From a virus: 35,460 nt of DNA. Every line of letters starts with the position of its first letter. The stretch's first letter is position 1. Position numbers and translations under genes: made by a program. This document shows positions 113 through 35,460 of this stretch, piece after piece. A model generated the notes under the pieces. The model ran no database searches. It was not told the DNA's origin and was given only the letters and a program-made list of their open reading frames with translations. Where the stretch lies: IMG/VR virus record IMGVR_UViG_3300007734_000622, positions 1 to 35,460 of that record; one strand, given 5' to 3'.

Positions 113-182
113 GTTATAACTCCCATATCAAGTCTGCTAAGACCAATCACGAACTCGCTGAGCTTGATTAGGGAGTTAATCT
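113..182 (-). other. attC-like recombination site (short form)
   Basis: Read on the minus strand, the site runs from ATTAAC (180-175) to GTTATA (120-115). Between them lie arms TCCC-TA-ATCAAG and CTTGAT-AT-GGGA, which pair except for a two-base internal loop, around a central loop of about 30 nt. The AAC...GTT outer boxes, paired inner arms and unpaired spacer match the plan of an integron attC site, though it is shorter than the two at 34429 and 35072. It lies about 40 bases downstream of the resolvase gene and begins the cassette-like array. It could also simply be a terminator-like hairpin after the replication operon. Confidence 0.5.
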
Positions 183-18694: not shown

Positions 18695-18751
18695 ATGAAA
18701 GTAAAAAAACCAAGAATAAAACCTAAACCAATTTATTCCATTAAAAAATAA
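18695..18751 (+). CDS. Tiny Lys/Pro-rich ORF (18 aa)
   Basis: MKVKKPRIKPKPIYSIKK then TAA, whose last base is the first base of the next ATG (TAATG). It fills the gap between the tail block and the first glycosyltransferase and may serve translational coupling, or be a real micro-protein. It is very short and could be chance. Confidence 0.35.
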   Translation: MKVKKPRIKPKPIYSIKK

Positions 18752-19464
18752 TGAAAATACTTGTAAAATTTCCATCAAGGGAACGACCTCATATTTTTAA
18801 TAAAACAATTAGGGAATATATTAGTAATGCTAATAATATTAAAAATATAAAATTCCTTATAACTTTAGATTATGATTGTCCTAATTTAGAACAATATAAA
18901 ATAATATGTCTAAAATTGATTGAGAAAAAAATTGATTTAACATATATTATTGGTGTTTCCACAGGCAAAATTTCGGCAATTAATAGAGATATGGAAAATG
19001 TTAAAGAATGGGATATTTGTGTTCTTGCCTCTGACGATATGATTTGTAAAGAAAAAAATTGGGATAAAATATTAATTAGTGAAATGAAAGATAACTTTCC
19101 CAATCTTAATGGTGTTATTTGGCACTGGGATGGAGCAAAAAACACTAAACCAAATATTGAGAATAATGAATTAATAGGTGGATTAAATACAATGTGTATT
19201 TTTGGATTAGAATGGTATAGGATGTTTAATTTTATTTATCATCCCGATTATGTTTCTTTATTTTGTGATAATGAATTTGATATTTGTTCAAGGATTTTAA
19301 ATAAAGTATTTTATTCCGATTTAATTTTATTTAAACATGAGCATTGGTCAAATGGTACTCAATGGAGTTATACACACGATAATTTAATGAAAAAAGAACA
19401 AAAATTTTACAAACAAGATTCCACAACTTTTAATAAACGAAAACTAATTAATTTTGAATTATGA
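18751..19464 (+). CDS. Glycosyltransferase-like protein (GT-A type)
   Basis: A 237-aa protein with the start pattern of a nucleotide-sugar-binding Rossmann-like half (ILVKFPSRERP, 3-13; FLITLDYD, 35-42) and an acidic DxD-like motif, ASDDM at 93-97, in the place of the metal-binding loop of GT2-type enzymes. WHWDGA follows where a GT-A acceptor region is expected. It is the first of a run of sugar-transfer genes. The donor sugar and target cannot be told from sequence. Confidence 0.65.
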   Translation: MKILVKFPSRERPHIFNKTIREYISNANNIKNIKFLITLDYDCPNLEQYKIICLKLIEKKIDLTYIIGVSTGKISAINRDMENVKEWDICVLASDDMICKEKNWDKILISEMKDNFPNLNGVIWHWDGAKNTKPNIENNELIGGLNTMCIFGLEWYRMFNFIYHPDYVSLFCDNEFDICSRILNKVFYSDLILFKHEHWSNGTQWSYTHDNLMKKEQKFYKQDSTTFNKRKLINFEL

Positions 19465-20159
19465 AAGACTTTATTTTATTACATCACTTAGGAATGGGCG
19501 ACCATATAATTTTAAATGGATTAGTTCGTCATATTTACGAAAGGGAACAAGAAAATTGCGAAAATTTTTGGCTAATATGTTATCCTTATTATGAAGATAA
19601 TTTAAAGGTAATGTATTCCGATTTACCTAAAATGAAATTTTTAATTGTAAAAAGAGATGAAGAAATTTTATATGCTTTAGATTCAAAAAAAGGAGCAAAA
19701 ATTGAAAATCTAAGTTTAGATAAAAAAGGGTTTAATTTATATAATAAAATAGGAGATGATGCTTTTTTTGAAATTTTTGGGTATGACAAAAAATTAATAC
19801 AAAAATTTAAAATAAAAAGGAATAAAGAAATTGAAGAAAATCTATTAATTAAATTAGTAGGAGCAGGAGATACCGATTATATATTTGTGCATGATGATTT
19901 TTCTCGTGGTTATCCTATTGACATTACAAAAATTAATAATAAAGAATCATTACCTATAATAAGAGCAGAAAAGGATGTTCCAATATTTGATTTGTTAGGG
20001 GTAATGGAATATGCTAAGACTATTCATGTTATAAGTTCTGCATTCCTTTGTATTTGTATTGCTAATCCAAAATTAGCAAAGAAAACAACTGCTCATTTAA
20101 CAGTTAGGAATATGTATTTAAAGTCTTATGTAGAATCAAAAGGAATAAAAGTAATATAA
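19461..20159 (+). CDS. GT-B-fold glycosyltransferase-like protein (heptosyltransferase-like)
   Basis: A 232-aa protein with LLHHLGMGDHIILNGLVRHI (about 6-25), the glycine-rich N-terminal loop seen in GT9-type and related GT-B enzymes, and a second Rossmann half including HVISSAFLCICIAN near 189-202. It is shorter than typical heptosyltransferases (about 300-350 aa), so it may be a reduced member. The start overlaps the preceding gene by 4 nt. Confidence 0.55.
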   Translation: MKDFILLHHLGMGDHIILNGLVRHIYEREQENCENFWLICYPYYEDNLKVMYSDLPKMKFLIVKRDEEILYALDSKKGAKIENLSLDKKGFNLYNKIGDDAFFEIFGYDKKLIQKFKIKRNKEIEENLLIKLVGAGDTDYIFVHDDFSRGYPIDITKINNKESLPIIRAEKDVPIFDLLGVMEYAKTIHVISSAFLCICIANPKLAKKTTAHLTVRNMYLKSYVESKGIKVI

Positions 20160-20163
20160 AAAT

Positions 20164-20466
20164 ATGGAAACTCCAGGTAGCTTAATAGATAAATTAATAA
20201 CAGTGGATATGAAAATGTATCATAATCAAGAATTATTATACGAAATTCGTAGAGGAAACTATAAAGATTTTTGTAAAAGATTTAAGATTATATATTTAGA
20301 GGAAGATGAATGTAATCAACTTGAAAATCCATTTGAATTATATAGCATCCTTAAAAAAGCGTGTGATTTTAATGTTCAAAGAAATAAATTAATTGAGGAA
20401 ATTGATGAAAAATTTGAAAAATTAACAGGAGTAAAATTGGTTTTTAAACAACACAAAACATATTAA
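20164..20466 (+). CDS. DUF4254-like helical protein
   Basis: A 100-aa all-helical protein: TPGSLIDKLITVDMKMYHNQ at the start and CDFNVQRNKLIEEIDEKFEK near the end. The pattern 'sLidKL...dlN..RN.lieeID' recurs in small proteins found beside glycosyltransferases. It is sandwiched between sugar-transfer genes with tight spacing (4 nt before; none after), so it probably works with them. Biochemical role unknown. Confidence 0.5.
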   Translation: METPGSLIDKLITVDMKMYHNQELLYEIRRGNYKDFCKRFKIIYLEEDECNQLENPFELYSILKKACDFNVQRNKLIEEIDEKFEKLTGVKLVFKQHKTY

Positions 20467-21069
20467 ATGCAACCATTATTATCATTATGTATTCCTACTG
20501 TTTTTGGTCGTGAAGTCCAATTTAATAAATTATTAAATGAACTACAAAGACAAATGGCAGAAGATACATTACAAGGGATAGTGGAAATAATTGTTAATAA
20601 AGACAATAAAGAAATTTCAATTGGACATAAAAGACAATTAATGTATGAAAAATGTAATGGTATATATTCCGTACAAATTGATGATGATGATATGGTTTCT
20701 GGGGAATACTTAAAAACAATAATTACTGCCTGTCTAAATGACGATGATTGTATAGGATATATTGAAAATTGTAACATAAACGGAATTATAAGTAAATCAT
20801 TAATTGGCTGTCAATATTCTAATTGGATTGAGAATTTAAAAACAAAAGAATTTGGATGCACAAGATTTAGAACTCCTTTTTTTAAAATACCAATTAAAAC
20901 TCAATTTTGCTTAGAAACAAAAGTAAATGATATAAGATTTGGGGAAGATGTTGATTTTGCTACTCGTATTTATCCACTTATAAAAAGTATGACCTTTATT
21001 CCAGAGGAAATGTATTTTTATATATATAAAACTGAAAAAACGCATAATGAAAGATATGGAATTAAATAG
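20467..21069 (+). CDS. Family 2-like glycosyltransferase
   Basis: A 200-aa GT-A enzyme. It opens with LLSLCIPTVFGRE (residues 4-16), a GT2-like start, and has VQIDDDDMVSGEY at about 69-81, where the acidic run gives the metal-binding DxD. GEDVDFATRIYP near 157-168 resembles the GT2 ED catalytic region. The start follows the previous stop directly. It overlaps the next gene by 23 nt. Confidence 0.75.
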   Translation: MQPLLSLCIPTVFGREVQFNKLLNELQRQMAEDTLQGIVEIIVNKDNKEISIGHKRQLMYEKCNGIYSVQIDDDDMVSGEYLKTIITACLNDDDCIGYIENCNINGIISKSLIGCQYSNWIENLKTKEFGCTRFRTPFFKIPIKTQFCLETKVNDIRFGEDVDFATRIYPLIKSMTFIPEEMYFYIYKTEKTHNERYGIK

Positions 21070-21721
21070 TTGCATAATAAATTGTGCTGTTGGTTCTTGG
21101 TATTTAAAAGGACAAAATAGACTTGAAAAAAGTTTAATTAATCATAATTCATTGTGGGAACTATTAAAATGGACTAAATTTCCAAATAAAAATTATGATG
21201 AAAGGAATAACTACAATTTAAAGGCAAGTGCTTTTGAGGAGGCAATTAATAAGGGGTATAAAAAAATTCTTTGGCTTGATTCGTCTATTTATGCAATTAA
21301 TAATCCTCAACCTATTTTTGATATTATTGAAAATGAGGGATTTTTTAGTATTACAAATGGATATAATGCAGCGCAGGAATGTTCGGACAAATGTTTAGAT
21401 TATTTTAATATTAGTAGGGATGATGCCGAAAATATACCAATGTGTTCAAGTGGAATAATAGGAGTAAATTTACAAAATGAAAAAGCAAATATTTTTATTA
21501 ATAATTGGATTATTTCGGCAAAAAACAATGTATTTGATGGGTCAAGATTCCACGATAATCAAAGTCAAGATTCAAGATTTTTACATCATAGGCAAGACCA
21601 ATCCTCTGCATCAATTTTAATAAATACACTTAAATTAAAACTTTATCCAATAAATGAAATGGTTACATATAATAAAGAAAAAAATGATAAAATAATTTTT
21701 ATAATACAAGGAATGGTATGA
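21047..21721 (+). CDS. Glycosyltransferase-like protein
   Basis: A 224-aa protein (or 222 aa if started at the second Met). KKILWLDSSIYAI (about 72-84) resembles the DxD-type metal site of GT-A enzymes with one acidic residue replaced, and SRFHDNQSQDSRFLHHRQDQ looks like a C-terminal acidic/catalytic region. Overlaps on both sides (23 nt and ATGA) tie it to its neighbours. Which sugar is used is unknown. Confidence 0.55.
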   Translation: MKDMELNSCIINCAVGSWYLKGQNRLEKSLINHNSLWELLKWTKFPNKNYDERNNYNLKASAFEEAINKGYKKILWLDSSIYAINNPQPIFDIIENEGFFSITNGYNAAQECSDKCLDYFNISRDDAENIPMCSSGIIGVNLQNEKANIFINNWIISAKNNVFDGSRFHDNQSQDSRFLHHRQDQSSASILINTLKLKLYPINEMVTYNKEKNDKIIFIIQGMV

Positions 21722-22566
21722 GAGGAATAGTATTAATAGCAGGTGGTAACGCAGCGTATGGTGGATGGGCATTAAATCTCGCTATGGGATTAAAGAATGA
21801 AGAACCAGATATTGATATTACTTTGCTTTGGCATGGAAACGCTAAAACATATTTTGAAAAAAACCATTCCTATATTTTTAATTCTATTATTGAAATACCA
21901 ACAGAATTAATAACAAGAAACGGAATAATTAATTATGTAAAAGCAAAAACACTTTTATATGATTTATCTCCTTATGAAGAAACTATATTTATTGATGCCG
22001 ATGTAATTTGGTTTCCTAATAAAAAAATAACCGATTTGTTTGATTCATTAAAAGATATAGATTTTACAATTGGAAATAGAGGAAAATCTGAACTTACAGA
22101 AAATACTCAATTAACTTGGTCTATTGGAAAGGATATGTTAAAATATGGAGATATAGTTTATAATTTATCTTCCGAATTTATTTATTTTAAAAAAACAAAA
22201 AAAGTTTATGATTTATTTAAACTTTCACAGGAGGTTTATGATAATATTGATATAGATTATAAAAGATTTGATGGTGGTGTTCCCGATGAATTGGCATTTC
22301 AAATAGCGATGATGATTGAAAAAATTACACCACATAAATCTCCTTATTTGCCTTTTTATTGGGAGGCATATGAAAAAAAATCTTTAAAAATACCACAACT
22401 TTATAATGGGTTTTGGGGATATTCAATCGGAGGAGCAGGTGTTTCTCCAATGCAAAAACAAATTTATGATGCATTGGTAAAACATTATTCCTCAAATTTC
22501 GGGGTTAAATTCCCATTCCTTGCTAATAGTAAACGAAATTTATTTAAACTCCGACAAAAAATATAA
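21718..22566 (+). CDS. GT8-like glycosyltransferase
   Basis: A 282-aa protein with FIDADVIWF at 91-99, the DxD signature of GT8-like enzymes, and FDGGVPDELAFQIAMM further on, where these enzymes carry a conserved acceptor/donor-binding region. The N-terminal IVLIAGGNAAYGGWALNLA resembles the nucleotide-binding strand-turn. It is the last of the sugar genes, and the portal follows after only 3 nt. Confidence 0.65.
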   Translation: MRGIVLIAGGNAAYGGWALNLAMGLKNEEPDIDITLLWHGNAKTYFEKNHSYIFNSIIEIPTELITRNGIINYVKAKTLLYDLSPYEETIFIDADVIWFPNKKITDLFDSLKDIDFTIGNRGKSELTENTQLTWSIGKDMLKYGDIVYNLSSEFIYFKKTKKVYDLFKLSQEVYDNIDIDYKRFDGGVPDELAFQIAMMIEKITPHKSPYLPFYWEAYEKKSLKIPQLYNGFWGYSIGGAGVSPMQKQIYDALVKHYSSNFGVKFPFLANSKRNLFKLRQKI

Positions 22567-26008: not shown

Positions 26009-26050
26009 AACCGACTAAGGAGGAGATAAAATTTCCTTAGTCGGTTTTTT
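26009..26050 (+). terminator. Strong rho-independent terminator with GGAGG in the loop
   Basis: AACCGACTAAGGA (26009-26021) pairs perfectly with TCCTTAGTCGGTT (26034-26046), 13 bp, around a 12-nt loop, followed by further T bases. It ends the preceding two-gene unit. Its start repeats AACCGACT found at two gene starts (8649 and 25453). AAGGAGG (26018-26024) is partly in the loop and could pair with CCCTCC (26056-26061), an alternative fold. Confidence 0.75.
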
Positions 26051-26096
26051 TGTTACCCTCCATAGTTGGTTAAAATTTAACTTTAAAATTAAAAAT

Positions 26097-33459: not shown

Positions 33460-33494
33460 CAAGTCAAACCTTCGCAAAGCCGAGAGTTACAGGC
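33460..33494 (-). other. Half attC-like site (truncated)
   Basis: On the minus strand GCCTGTAAC (33494-33486) is followed by an arm CTTTGCGAAGGTTTGACTTG, resembling the left arms of the full sites. No matching right arm follows before the gene at 33433. It closes the cassette-like unit of the DNA methyltransferase: its GCCTGTAAC is the exact complement of the GTTACAGGC that opens the same unit (34437-34429). Confidence 0.55.
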
Positions 33495-33498
33495 AATA

Positions 33499-34506
33499 CT
33501 ACGACTGTGCATAATTTGAACATTCTACTTCTATGAATGAAAAAATATGTGCAATAGTATCAACTGTCCAACCATCACCCAATAAACAAGCTGCTTCATT
33601 TCTTTTAAGTGTGCTTGTATATCCATTAGGTACTGTTTGTAATCGTTCCATTTCGTTTTGATTAAGTTTTCTAATATCGCCATCAATAAAATTTTCTTTC
33701 ATTTCATCTTCGGTCATTTTAGAATACTTTTCAAATGTTTCTTTGTCTTTGAAAATTACATTTATAAATCCTTGTATCATATATCTTCTTAATGATGAAA
33801 ATGTACTTCCCGGATTTCTGCTTTCACTTTCAAGTAAGCACCTTGCTTTTAATCTATCTGTATAACCATTATCCAATAAATCTTGAAATTTTATTTTTTT
33901 GTTTCTCGGTTGTGGTATCATTGAATATCTATTACCAAACAAATCAAAACTTTCTGGACCTATATTAGTCCAATAGCTTCTTTGTCTTAATTGTCCTGAT
34001 ACTAATTCACTATTTATGTTTGTTGGATAAGTTCCAAGCATTTCGCTTATTGCTGCATAACTATAATCATCCATTGCCACATTTTCAAGTAAAAAGTATT
34101 TTGGCTCACATTCTTTTAAAAGTCTTAAATACTCGTAAAATAAACCTGATTTTTCGCCTTGTAATCCTAATTTTTCTTTATTAGCTGAACTAAAATCTTG
34201 ACAAGGACTTCCACCAATCAATAAATCAATTTTAGGCAAATCACTTGCTTTTACATCTAATACGCTACCTAATTGAATTATATTAGGGAAATTGTGTTGC
34301 GTTACTTTTATTGCGTGTGGTTTTATTTCACTTGCAAAATATTGATTAACTTTTATTCCTGCCTTTTGTAAAGCAATTTGACCACAAGACATACCATCGA
34401 AAAGAGATAGTACATTTAAACCCGTACTGCCTGTAACACGTGTTTGGCAAAAGCTGGGCTTCTGTGGTTCAATCAAGTTCTGTAATTCTATTGAGCTTCT
34501 GTGCAT
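33499..34506 (-). CDS. C5-cytosine DNA methyltransferase
   Basis: Methylates cytosine in DNA. Motifs in order (335-aa numbering): I, VLSLFDGMSCGQIAL from 32; IV, GGSPCQDFS at 98-106 with the catalytic Cys102; VI, ENVA at 141-144; VIII, QLRQRSYW at 172-179; IX-X, LNQNEMERLQTVPNGY and LLGDGWTVD. No restriction enzyme is nearby, so anti-restriction protection is the likely role (inference). The only upstream ATG lies inside the loop of the attC-like site at 34429-34562, so the first 30 or so residues come from that site and a non-ATG start nearer motif I may be used. It would be the third cassette. Confidence 0.9.
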   Translation of the reverse strand: MHRSSIELQNLIEPQKPSFCQTRVTGSTGLNVLSLFDGMSCGQIALQKAGIKVNQYFASEIKPHAIKVTQHNFPNIIQLGSVLDVKASDLPKIDLLIGGSPCQDFSSANKEKLGLQGEKSGLFYEYLRLLKECEPKYFLLENVAMDDYSYAAISEMLGTYPTNINSELVSGQLRQRSYWTNIGPESFDLFGNRYSMIPQPRNKKIKFQDLLDNGYTDRLKARCLLESESRNPGSTFSSLRRYMIQGFINVIFKDKETFEKYSKMTEDEMKENFIDGDIRKLNQNEMERLQTVPNGYTSTLKRNEAACLLGDGWTVDTIAHIFSFIEVECSNYAQS

Positions 34507-34562
34507 AATTTAAAGTTTTGTAATTCTAATCCCAGCCTTCGCCAAGCACCATACGTTAGCTG
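34429..34562 (-). other. attC-like recombination site, 134 bp
   Basis: Minus strand: CAGCTAAC at the left, GTTACAGGC at the right. The 19-nt arms on the plus strand (34440-34458 and 34531-34549) are reverse complements with 16 of 19 matches, mainly G-T wobble differences, and enclose a 72-nt variable loop. The outer boxes AAC and GTT, spacers and wobble-rich arms follow the attC plan. TGTAATTCTATTGAGC in the loop (34481-34496) matches the site at 35072 in 15 of 16 bases. Confidence 0.72.
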
Positions 34563-35024
34563 TCATTGCAAAGACACCACCGACATAACAGACTTTAAGT
34601 ATCTATCATACATAATTATACTTCCTGAATTTGCTACATTATAATTGCCTTTTGGAAGTTCAACTAATTGATGACACTTATTTCTTGCATCGGAAGTAAT
34701 CCCATTATCTTCTGCCCCTAACAAATAAATACATTTATCAAGGTGTTGGTACTCTTCAACTTTTACGCTTCTTTCGTCAAGTTCAACACCAACTAATCGA
34801 CAATCGTATGGCATTGATTTATAAAACTCGTCAAAAGTTTCATAATAGTAAAATGGTATTGATTCGCAAGTTTTCATTGTATCACTTGCTTGTTTTGGTA
34901 TTCTTTTACCAATTGTGAATATAAAACTTGCACCTAATATATTTGCCGAACGCCACAAACTACCGACATTCATTTCTGTTTTTGGGTTCATAATTCCTAT
35001 ACCGAAATATCCTTTATTTTTCAT
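34563..35024 (-). CDS. SpoU/TrmH-family RNA 2'-O-methyltransferase
   Basis: Transfers methyl groups to ribose in tRNA or rRNA through a knotted SAM-binding fold. Family motifs: NVGSLWRSA at 19-27, LLGAEDNGI at 101-109, and VELPKGNYNV followed by ANSGSIIMYDR at 121-141. The start is set at 35024 (MKNKGYFGIG, 153 aa), because the longest frame reaches into the attC-like site at 35072-35205. The length is normal for small SpoU proteins. It is the second cassette. The target RNA cannot be told. Confidence 0.88.
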   Translation of the reverse strand: MKNKGYFGIGIMNPKTEMNVGSLWRSANILGASFIFTIGKRIPKQASDTMKTCESIPFYYYETFDEFYKSMPYDCRLVGVELDERSVKVEEYQHLDKCIYLLGAEDNGITSDARNKCHQLVELPKGNYNVANSGSIIMYDRYLKSVMSVVSLQ

Positions 35025-35071
35025 TTTCTTATTATTTATAAGTTTAAAATATGACCGAGAAAAGCAACGAA

Positions 35072-35205
35072 CAGCTAACATTGCATTGGCAAAAGCAGGG
35101 CTGACGTACTAATTTTGAACATTTGTAATCCTATTGAGCATTGATAAGTAATTGAACAGTAGTGCTACTATTCCCTGCCTTCGCCAATGCTTCAACGTTA
35201 TACGC
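35072..35205 (-). other. attC-like recombination site, 134 bp
   Basis: Minus strand: GCGTATAAC at the left, GTTAGCTG at the right. The 18-nt arms on the plus strand (35083-35100 and 35173-35190) are reverse complements with 16 of 18 matches; the two differences give G-T wobble pairs on the minus strand. They enclose a 72-nt loop. The arms carry the block shared with the site at 34429 (GGCAAAAGC on one side, CCTTCGCCAA on the other). The outer AAC and GTT boxes fit an attC. Confidence 0.72.
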
Positions 35206-35224
35206 AACCTTACAAAGACAGCAA

Positions 35225-35460
35225 TCATTCCTCTTTAATTTTAGTAAGCATCTCCAAACTTAGTTCATAGAAATCAAAGTTATCTTTGTTCAATAACGGA
35301 TAGATGTCCGTATCGTGCCAGATAATCTTATTGATTTCAAGTTCATCTGGCGAGCCATCGTGTCCTACATCTCCGTTAGCCATGTAACGCTGTTCAGGTT
35401 CGCCCTTGCTGAATGTTCCAATGACATCCACTTCAATCTCAATAGTTAGTGTAATTTTCA
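35225..35460 (-). CDS. Hypothetical 78-aa protein (cassette 1), crosses the circular junction
   Basis: Full product starts MKITLTIEIEVDVIGTFSKG, continues with PEQRYMANGDVGHDGSPDEL and ends LSLEMLTKIKEE. The start codon lies at 95-93 of the left end, and the right copy lacks one base of it. Mostly beta-strand at the start, helical at the end, acidic overall. GSPDEL and the hydrophilic loop recall small proteins of unknown function. It is less AT-rich than its neighbours. Function is not known. Confidence 0.75.
   Translation of the reverse strand, partial: KITLTIEIEVDVIGTFSKGEPEQRYMANGDVGHDGSPDELEINKIIWHDTDIYPLLNKDNFDFYELSLEMLTKIKEE
35367..35460. repeat. 94-bp direct terminal repeat (identical to 1-94)
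   Basis: The last 94 bases equal the first 94 with no difference seen. Because one gene reads across the junction, this most simply reflects a circular molecule cut open by assembly (unique length 35,366). A physical terminal repeat is also possible; read depth over the repeat would separate the two. Confidence 0.9.

Follow-up and report, generated by a model that had tools for sequence, protein, structure and literature searches.

Integron-like gene cassettes in a phage genome and a family of related arrays in Bacteroidota linked to a recombinase without the IntI-specific domain

In the pdif modules of Acinetobacter plasmids, Xer-like tyrosine recombinases swap genes that are flanked by short sites; these Xer/dif sites are 28 bp long and double-stranded, and have no long hairpin, no dedicated enzyme with an attI and no complementary cassette ends. 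In integrons, an additional IntI-specific domain near patch III is treated as the criterion of the integrase (PMC9668308), and the I2 helix is said to be unique to IntI and to give it single-strand activity, with intermediates noted as missing (PMC7790495). Smyshlyaev et al. (2021) described an integron-like subgroup of simple tyrosine recombinases and called the insertion essential for integron function; their passages on insertion-free members draw no link to cassette arrays (PMC8138268). In Bacteroidetes, IntegronFinder yielded nothing but integrase-only elements and then a single complete integron, in Salinibacter (PMC9024848). Integrons in phages are already known: Qi et al. (2023) reported integrons and CALINs found with integron/attC detection tools in NCBI phage genomes, among them a CALIN of Polaribacter phage P12002L (PMC9892861).

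The window analysed here is a whole virus record of 35,460 nucleotides (IMG/VR IMGVR_UViG_3300007734_000622). It is a complete phage genome of about 35,366 bp whose first and last 94 bases are identical; given this direct terminal repeat, the genome is circular or terminally redundant. Profile matches identified terminase, tape measure and GH25 lysin genes, and a check of the whole genome found no PF00589 tyrosine recombinase. Four to five consecutive glycosyltransferase-like ORFs seem to lie amid structural genes at 18751-22566, an impression from sequence only, and a strong intergenic hairpin followed by T-rich sequence at 26009-26071 is probably an ordinary terminator.

The array of interest consists of three minus-strand cassettes carrying a 78-aa gene, a SpoU/TrmH-family RNA methyltransferase gene and a C5 cytosine DNA methyltransferase gene, parted by palindromes with AAC and GTT boxes, as an earlier sequence-only reading had described. 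Two intact attC-like sites, both on the minus strand, lie 5′ of the DNA methyltransferase gene (site 1, 34428-34564, AAC..GTT at 34435-34557) and 5′ of the TrmH gene (site 2, 35070-35206, AAC..GTT at 35077-35199), and score 120.3 and 141.8 bits, respectively, with the covariance model R1 introduced below. The length of 134 bp first given to each site holds approximately when flanking R-box bases are counted, but AAC..GTT itself spans 123 bp. In the arms TTGGCGAAGGCNGGG pairs with CCCNGCTTTTGCCAA, two G.T wobbles included, and the two loops have GCTCAATAGRATTACA in common (15 of 16 bases); wobbles and loop block had been read correctly. The DNA methyltransferase gene (33499-34506, minus strand; PF00145, E=1e-34) has its start codon inside the loop of site 1 and its first ~23-26 codons within the site; hairpin excepted, ATG, GTG and TTG are absent ahead of the first motif. 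The TrmH gene (34563-35024, minus strand; PF00588, E=1e-17) likely starts at 35024, with the longest ORF running from 35081.

The first bases of each unit are the complement of its last ones, and the extents of nine, eight and six bases reported before stand. Read from the sequence, the DNA methyltransferase cassette opens with GTTACAGGC (34429-34437) and closes with GCCTGTAAC (33486-33494), while the TrmH cassette opens with GTTAGCTG (35072-35079), as does a TrmH cassette of Arcicella, and closes with CAGCTAAC (34555-34562). The 78-aa cassette opens with GTTATA (115-120), the complement of TATAAC at 35197-35202; all of these are on the minus strand. The three cassettes had thus been recognised, but the array extends further than first drawn, crossing the contig ends to reach position 177. 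The upstream bound of the 78-aa cassette is a previously unlisted 60-bp hairpin (118-177, minus strand, AACTCCC...GGGAGTT), a probable short and divergent attC-like site: its closing GTT is the exact start of the first cassette, GTTATA, and model R1 gives no match to it. The 78-aa gene likewise spans the ends. Its 5′ part occupies 1-95 on the minus strand, with the start codon at 93-95 within the terminal repeat, and it continues at 35366-35225 (as an uninterrupted stretch it is seen at 35225-35460, minus strand, where 35367-35460 repeats 1-94); it has no family match in Pfam or PHROGs. At its other end, after GCCTGTAAC, the array stops in a remnant half hairpin (TCTCGGCTTTGCGAAGG..., 33460-33485, minus strand), which read from 33485 to 33460 resembles the 5′ arm TTGGCGAAGG of the intact sites; the partner arm is missing, and R1 gives no match here either. 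With two intact attC-like sites and no integrase in a phage genome, the array has the features of a phage CALIN.

The cassettes of the window are found elsewhere. The TrmH cassette has ~90% DNA identity to a cassette in an array of Arcicella aurantiaca, and the DNA methyltransferase cassette recurs in a phage contig (L003) with 94-96% DNA identity and different flanks. Both cassettes recur with other neighbours. One may still suppose that the cassettes were captured by the cassette route in the past and that the window array is now static and inherited as a gene block, as its half hairpin at one end, divergent site at the other and the absence of a recombinase from the phage would allow. We consider this possible but on balance doubtful, given the two intact, high-scoring sites that remain, the same two methyltransferase cassettes between other flanks, and isolated phages with such arrays that differ by whole cassettes. 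The nearest relatives found via the terminase of the window phage are only ~52% identical, too distant for an array-free relative to be found among them, so no empty site is demonstrable for this array. In another contig (L124), a cassette matches the window's DNA methyltransferase cassette (34437-34270) only over its first ~169 bases, possibly a mosaic gene, unless the contig piece ends there.

An exact pattern derived from the two window sites matched 34 IMG/VR contigs. Model R1 was built from 32 aligned sites, both window sites included, and since it was trained on phage sites and one Arcicella site, its matches in bacteria are largely independent of the training set. Six pairs of the alignment changed on both sides, and none of 500 shuffles reached the observed covariation score; all but one of the 32 aligned sites contain the pattern used for the search, which leaves most pattern columns invariant and lets the flanking pairs and the free position vary. 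Applied to the window, R1 found only sites 1 and 2, everything else staying at or below ~10 bits except the same sites read backwards. The comparison with Bacteroidota genomes and phages that had been proposed from the sequence was productive: R1, searched on these two groups, found many sites in phage contigs, and of 396 genomes of Bacteroidota, the phylum of Arcicella, 134 have sites, often in long arrays. In the arrays read, all R1 sites of an array lie on one strand, as do the attC hairpins of an integron array. Folding had also been proposed as a check, and does not by itself set the sites apart: the two window sites have thermodynamic z-scores of -1.7 and -2.4, and most of the palindromes have modest z-scores. 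The evidence for the sites is therefore the pattern together with the covariation. The site strand gives the more stable fold in 196 of 262 sites. Nearly all R boxes begin with GTTR (260/262), and the GTTRRRY consensus, which characterises the R′ box of IntI-based integrons, occurs in 22 of 262. The presumed bottom strand has its extra unpaired bases in the 5′ arm, a departure from textbook attC sites that, like the R boxes, counts against the integron reading. Rfam gives no match to the window sites. A plain palindrome scan with AAC/GTT anchors was dropped as unspecific, shuffled sequence scoring equally high, and a regular-expression scan for sites at methyltransferase loci found nothing; R1 performed better there.

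Matching cassette ends are a general property of these arrays. In loci other than the window, 99 of 143 units have six of six complementary end bases beyond GTT/AAC, compared with 6 of 207 when the two ends of one site are paired and with 0.8% for pairs drawn at random. The last unit in six phage arrays closes with a 9/9 match, mostly ahead of unrelated sequence. When a cassette is present in two places, the hairpin of one side is common to both and that of the other side is not: for units 99.9% identical between two genomes (G061 and G004), left hairpins are 91% and right hairpins 53% alike, and for a cassette repeated within genome G378 the values are 99% and 64%. Among isolated Flavobacterium phages that are otherwise 99.9% identical in the stretch aligned, stinky9-1 lacks two cassettes of hemulen6-1, one of them with a methyltransferase (1181 bp in all; junction TTAAC|G), and lillamy9-6 has an additional 434-bp unit at CATAAC|G. 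Since near-identical phages differ by whole cassettes exactly at AAC|G, phage cassettes do move. Integrons cut the bottom strand at the AA|C of the 5′ box, and the phage breakpoints agree with this. The proposal of an integrase-less, integron-like array in the window is borne out by these gains and losses, by the same hallmark in relatives, by the return of the two methyltransferase cassettes beside other neighbours and by the lack of a PF00589 protein.

Two readings that dispense with a site-specific enzyme were weighed against these data. Transcription terminators or 5′ regulatory structures, with incidental end complementarity, would suit palindromes that are intergenic, reach into start regions and mostly have modest folding z-scores, but the excess of matching ends over random pairs and the cassette boundaries in near-identical phages make this explanation hardly credible. 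The hairpins could instead be conserved repeats between which ordinary or phage-encoded homologous recombination swaps cassettes. From phage to phage the hairpin arms indeed hardly differ, although gene identity falls to ~66%, and the hemulen and stinky junctions have a 16-bp imperfect overlap in common. At the lillamy insertion, however, the overlap is only ~6 bp (ATAACG); exchange inside hairpins leaves the six complementary bases beyond the core unexplained, and the linkage to attI-like sites and an enzyme described below speaks against it as well. We regard it as very improbable. Several phage contigs (L111, L112, L114, L118, L133 and L138) carry methyltransferase cassettes ~66-73% alike under hairpins 90-99% alike; in these sequences it looks as if hairpins had been homogenised or gene bodies exchanged beneath them.

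A tyrosine recombinase gene precedes the array at 23 bacterial loci, and its other side is free of sites save in one contig-edge case. Most bacterial loci read have an attI-like start at a distance of 70-255 bp past the enzyme gene, with a 9/9 match to the first site; in the main clade of enzymes it has the common motif ATATAAnCGA|GTT. In five loci (L186, L220, L223, L225 and L227) the best attI-like match is 0.8-5 kb away, which makes the first cassette uncertain. An attI beside the integrase that matches the first cassette, as in IntI integrons, is thus present in most of the bacterial loci read and absent from the window. In genome G061 (locus L192), for example, the enzyme is followed by the GTTAGCGGT start, a nucleotidyltransferase-like cassette, ACCGCTAAC, a hairpin and the next cassette, and in Arcicella aurantiaca DSM 22214 a single contig bears both the array and the enzyme. 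Across the 396 genomes, enzyme and sites co-occur strongly (both in 81, enzyme only in 43, sites only in 53, neither in 219; P=1e-18). Of the 134 site-bearing genomes, 53 show no close enzyme relative at the chosen threshold and call for a separate account, be it array decay, genome incompleteness or a different enzyme. Among the longest arrays read is one (G378:C2:150809-184000) that follows an enzyme gene interrupted by several stops and so persists without an intact local enzyme. A cassette of the G061 array encodes a dihydropteroate synthase (L192:8743-9561, minus strand) with Sul3, Sul2 and Sul1 as the nearest models (351 bits to Sul3, under its cut-off of 475), which may be relevant to how sul genes arose.

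The enzyme linked to the arrays is not of the IntI type. Its best NCBIfam model is the XerA-like NF040815, and the IntI model TIGR02249 matches it in two pieces, below the cut-off, with the IntI-specific part missing. In an alignment with IntI4, a stretch of ~64 residues of IntI4 is matched by only ~22 in the enzyme; a true IntI from Bacteroidota can be aligned over the full length. The spacing from KGxxDR to LRH is 49-55 aa in the enzyme, 60-62 aa in Xer and 94-96 aa in true IntI; the IntI-specific domain of ~40 residues is absent, which places the enzyme outside integron integrases as defined by IntI. The array-linked enzymes group with three phage copies in a single clade of the tree (support 99/98), apart from IntI (100/99) and Xer; one subgroup, the main clade, is transcribed with the cassettes and another against them. 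Some enzymes (L140:1210-2880, minus strand; L207; L216) carry the motif HKGxxRI...WS...WHxP repeated one to three times at the N terminus; in one protein Pfam gives a weak and partial match to HARP (PF07443, E=0.003) there. Such repeats possibly replace I2 in handling single strands. An AlphaFold model of a phage-borne enzyme, made with a two-row alignment, had a pLDDT of 60 and was left out of the evidence. Annotated integrases also occur in Cellulophaga phage Ingeline and in Polaribacter phage Leef (identity 32-39%), with no convincing site array.

The sequence-only reading had supposed that a host integron integrase acts in trans. A host IntI moving the cassettes, with the arrays being ordinary CALINs and the neighbouring recombinase unrelated, has in its favour that IntI1 recombined P12002L_attC2 with attI1 in E. 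coli (PMC9892861), and that an IntI scores over the cut-off in three of 30 array-rich genomes. The other 27 have none, however, the three IntI genes are on contigs other than those of the listed sites, attI-like sites adjoin the I2-less enzyme, and GTTRRRY is rare in the site family. We therefore rejected IntI in trans as the main explanation and judge it improbable; the enzyme likely to act from the host is the separate recombinase without the IntI domain, which we infer recombines the sites.

Carriage by phages is less unusual than first thought: besides the 34 IMG/VR contigs and the phages treated by Qi et al. (PMC9892861), isolated Flavobacterium phages carry such arrays. The P12002L CALIN is similar to the window array in having attC-like sites, two DNA methyltransferases and no integrase in a Bacteroidota phage (PMC9892861); R1 gives two weak matches only in P12002L (24 bits), and the two systems are possibly related. 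Two phage contigs (L131:138-8585 and L114:1248-5016) encode their own I2-less enzyme beside the array, in L131 directly before terminase and portal genes. Phage cassettes differ from bacterial ones in gene orientation. When ORFs of 100 aa or more are counted, gene and site share a strand in 43 of 45 phage units and in 7 of 107 bacterial units (P=6e-28), and the first start codon lies within the 5′ site in 27 and 14 of them, respectively (P=1e-8); the phage contigs of this count are narrow-pattern picks, some of them related, and the ORFs are uncurated. Hemulen, found by another route, has the same reversed arrangement. Because the hairpin that travels with a phage gene is its 5′ one, phage genes are reversed relative to bacterial cassettes. 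We had considered a site at the 5′ end of the gene for bacterial units too, and rejected this, bacterial genes facing the opposite way.

We consider it likely that the three cassettes of the window phage belong to an integron-like system of Bacteroidota driven by the I2-less recombinase. A cassette would consist of a hairpin site and the gene that follows. Of the site, one strand would fold in vivo, and a tyrosine recombinase, presumably the I2-less one that adjoins bacterial arrays and for the window phage probably the host's, would cut the AA|C of the 5′ box; the excised cassette would then be joined to another attC-like site or to attI. Such cutting and joining would make the two ends of a cassette always complementary. 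With the phage gene facing the opposite way from bacterial cassettes, its own site lies at its 5′ end, where it often provides the start codon together with an N-terminal tail, and the reversed gene can be read along with the phage operon. Capture of cassettes through a host enzyme in trans is plausible.

The system has much in common with IntI integrons and CALINs: an integrase gene with an adjoining attI, one-directional arrays with folded attC-like hairpins, complementary cassette ends and a G|TT-type boundary. It differs from them in an integrase without the IntI-specific domain, in R boxes that are mostly not GTTRRRY, in sites that are long hairpins of one family, in a main-clade enzyme transcribed in the direction of the cassettes and in reversed phage genes. 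The window array works like an integron cassette array but falls outside integrons as defined by IntI. A second kind of integron in Bacteroidota and their phages, with an I2-less clade that represents either a solution to folded-single-strand cassette recombination reached separately from IntI or the state before I2 and with reversed phage cassettes whose attC supplies the start, is likely. The available part of Qi et al. mentions neither an enzyme without I2 nor the wider family of sites, and neither reversed genes nor phages that encode such an enzyme (PMC9892861). Our search of the open-access literature gave no description of a widespread integron-like platform with an I2-less integrase or of reversed phage cassettes, and both appear undescribed within the papers it covered.

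Attachment of attC-like hairpins, attI and cassettes to an I2-less enzyme makes the I2 explanation of integrons directly testable. The presence of the sites in a third of the sampled Bacteroidota genomes fills an apparent gap in the distribution of integrons in Bacteroidetes (compare PMC9024848). For the phages, the DNA methyltransferase and RNA methylase cassettes, by their predicted functions, probably help against host defence, and the arrays show concretely how genes, those for methyltransferases among them, can be swapped singly, for which isolated phage-host pairs exist.
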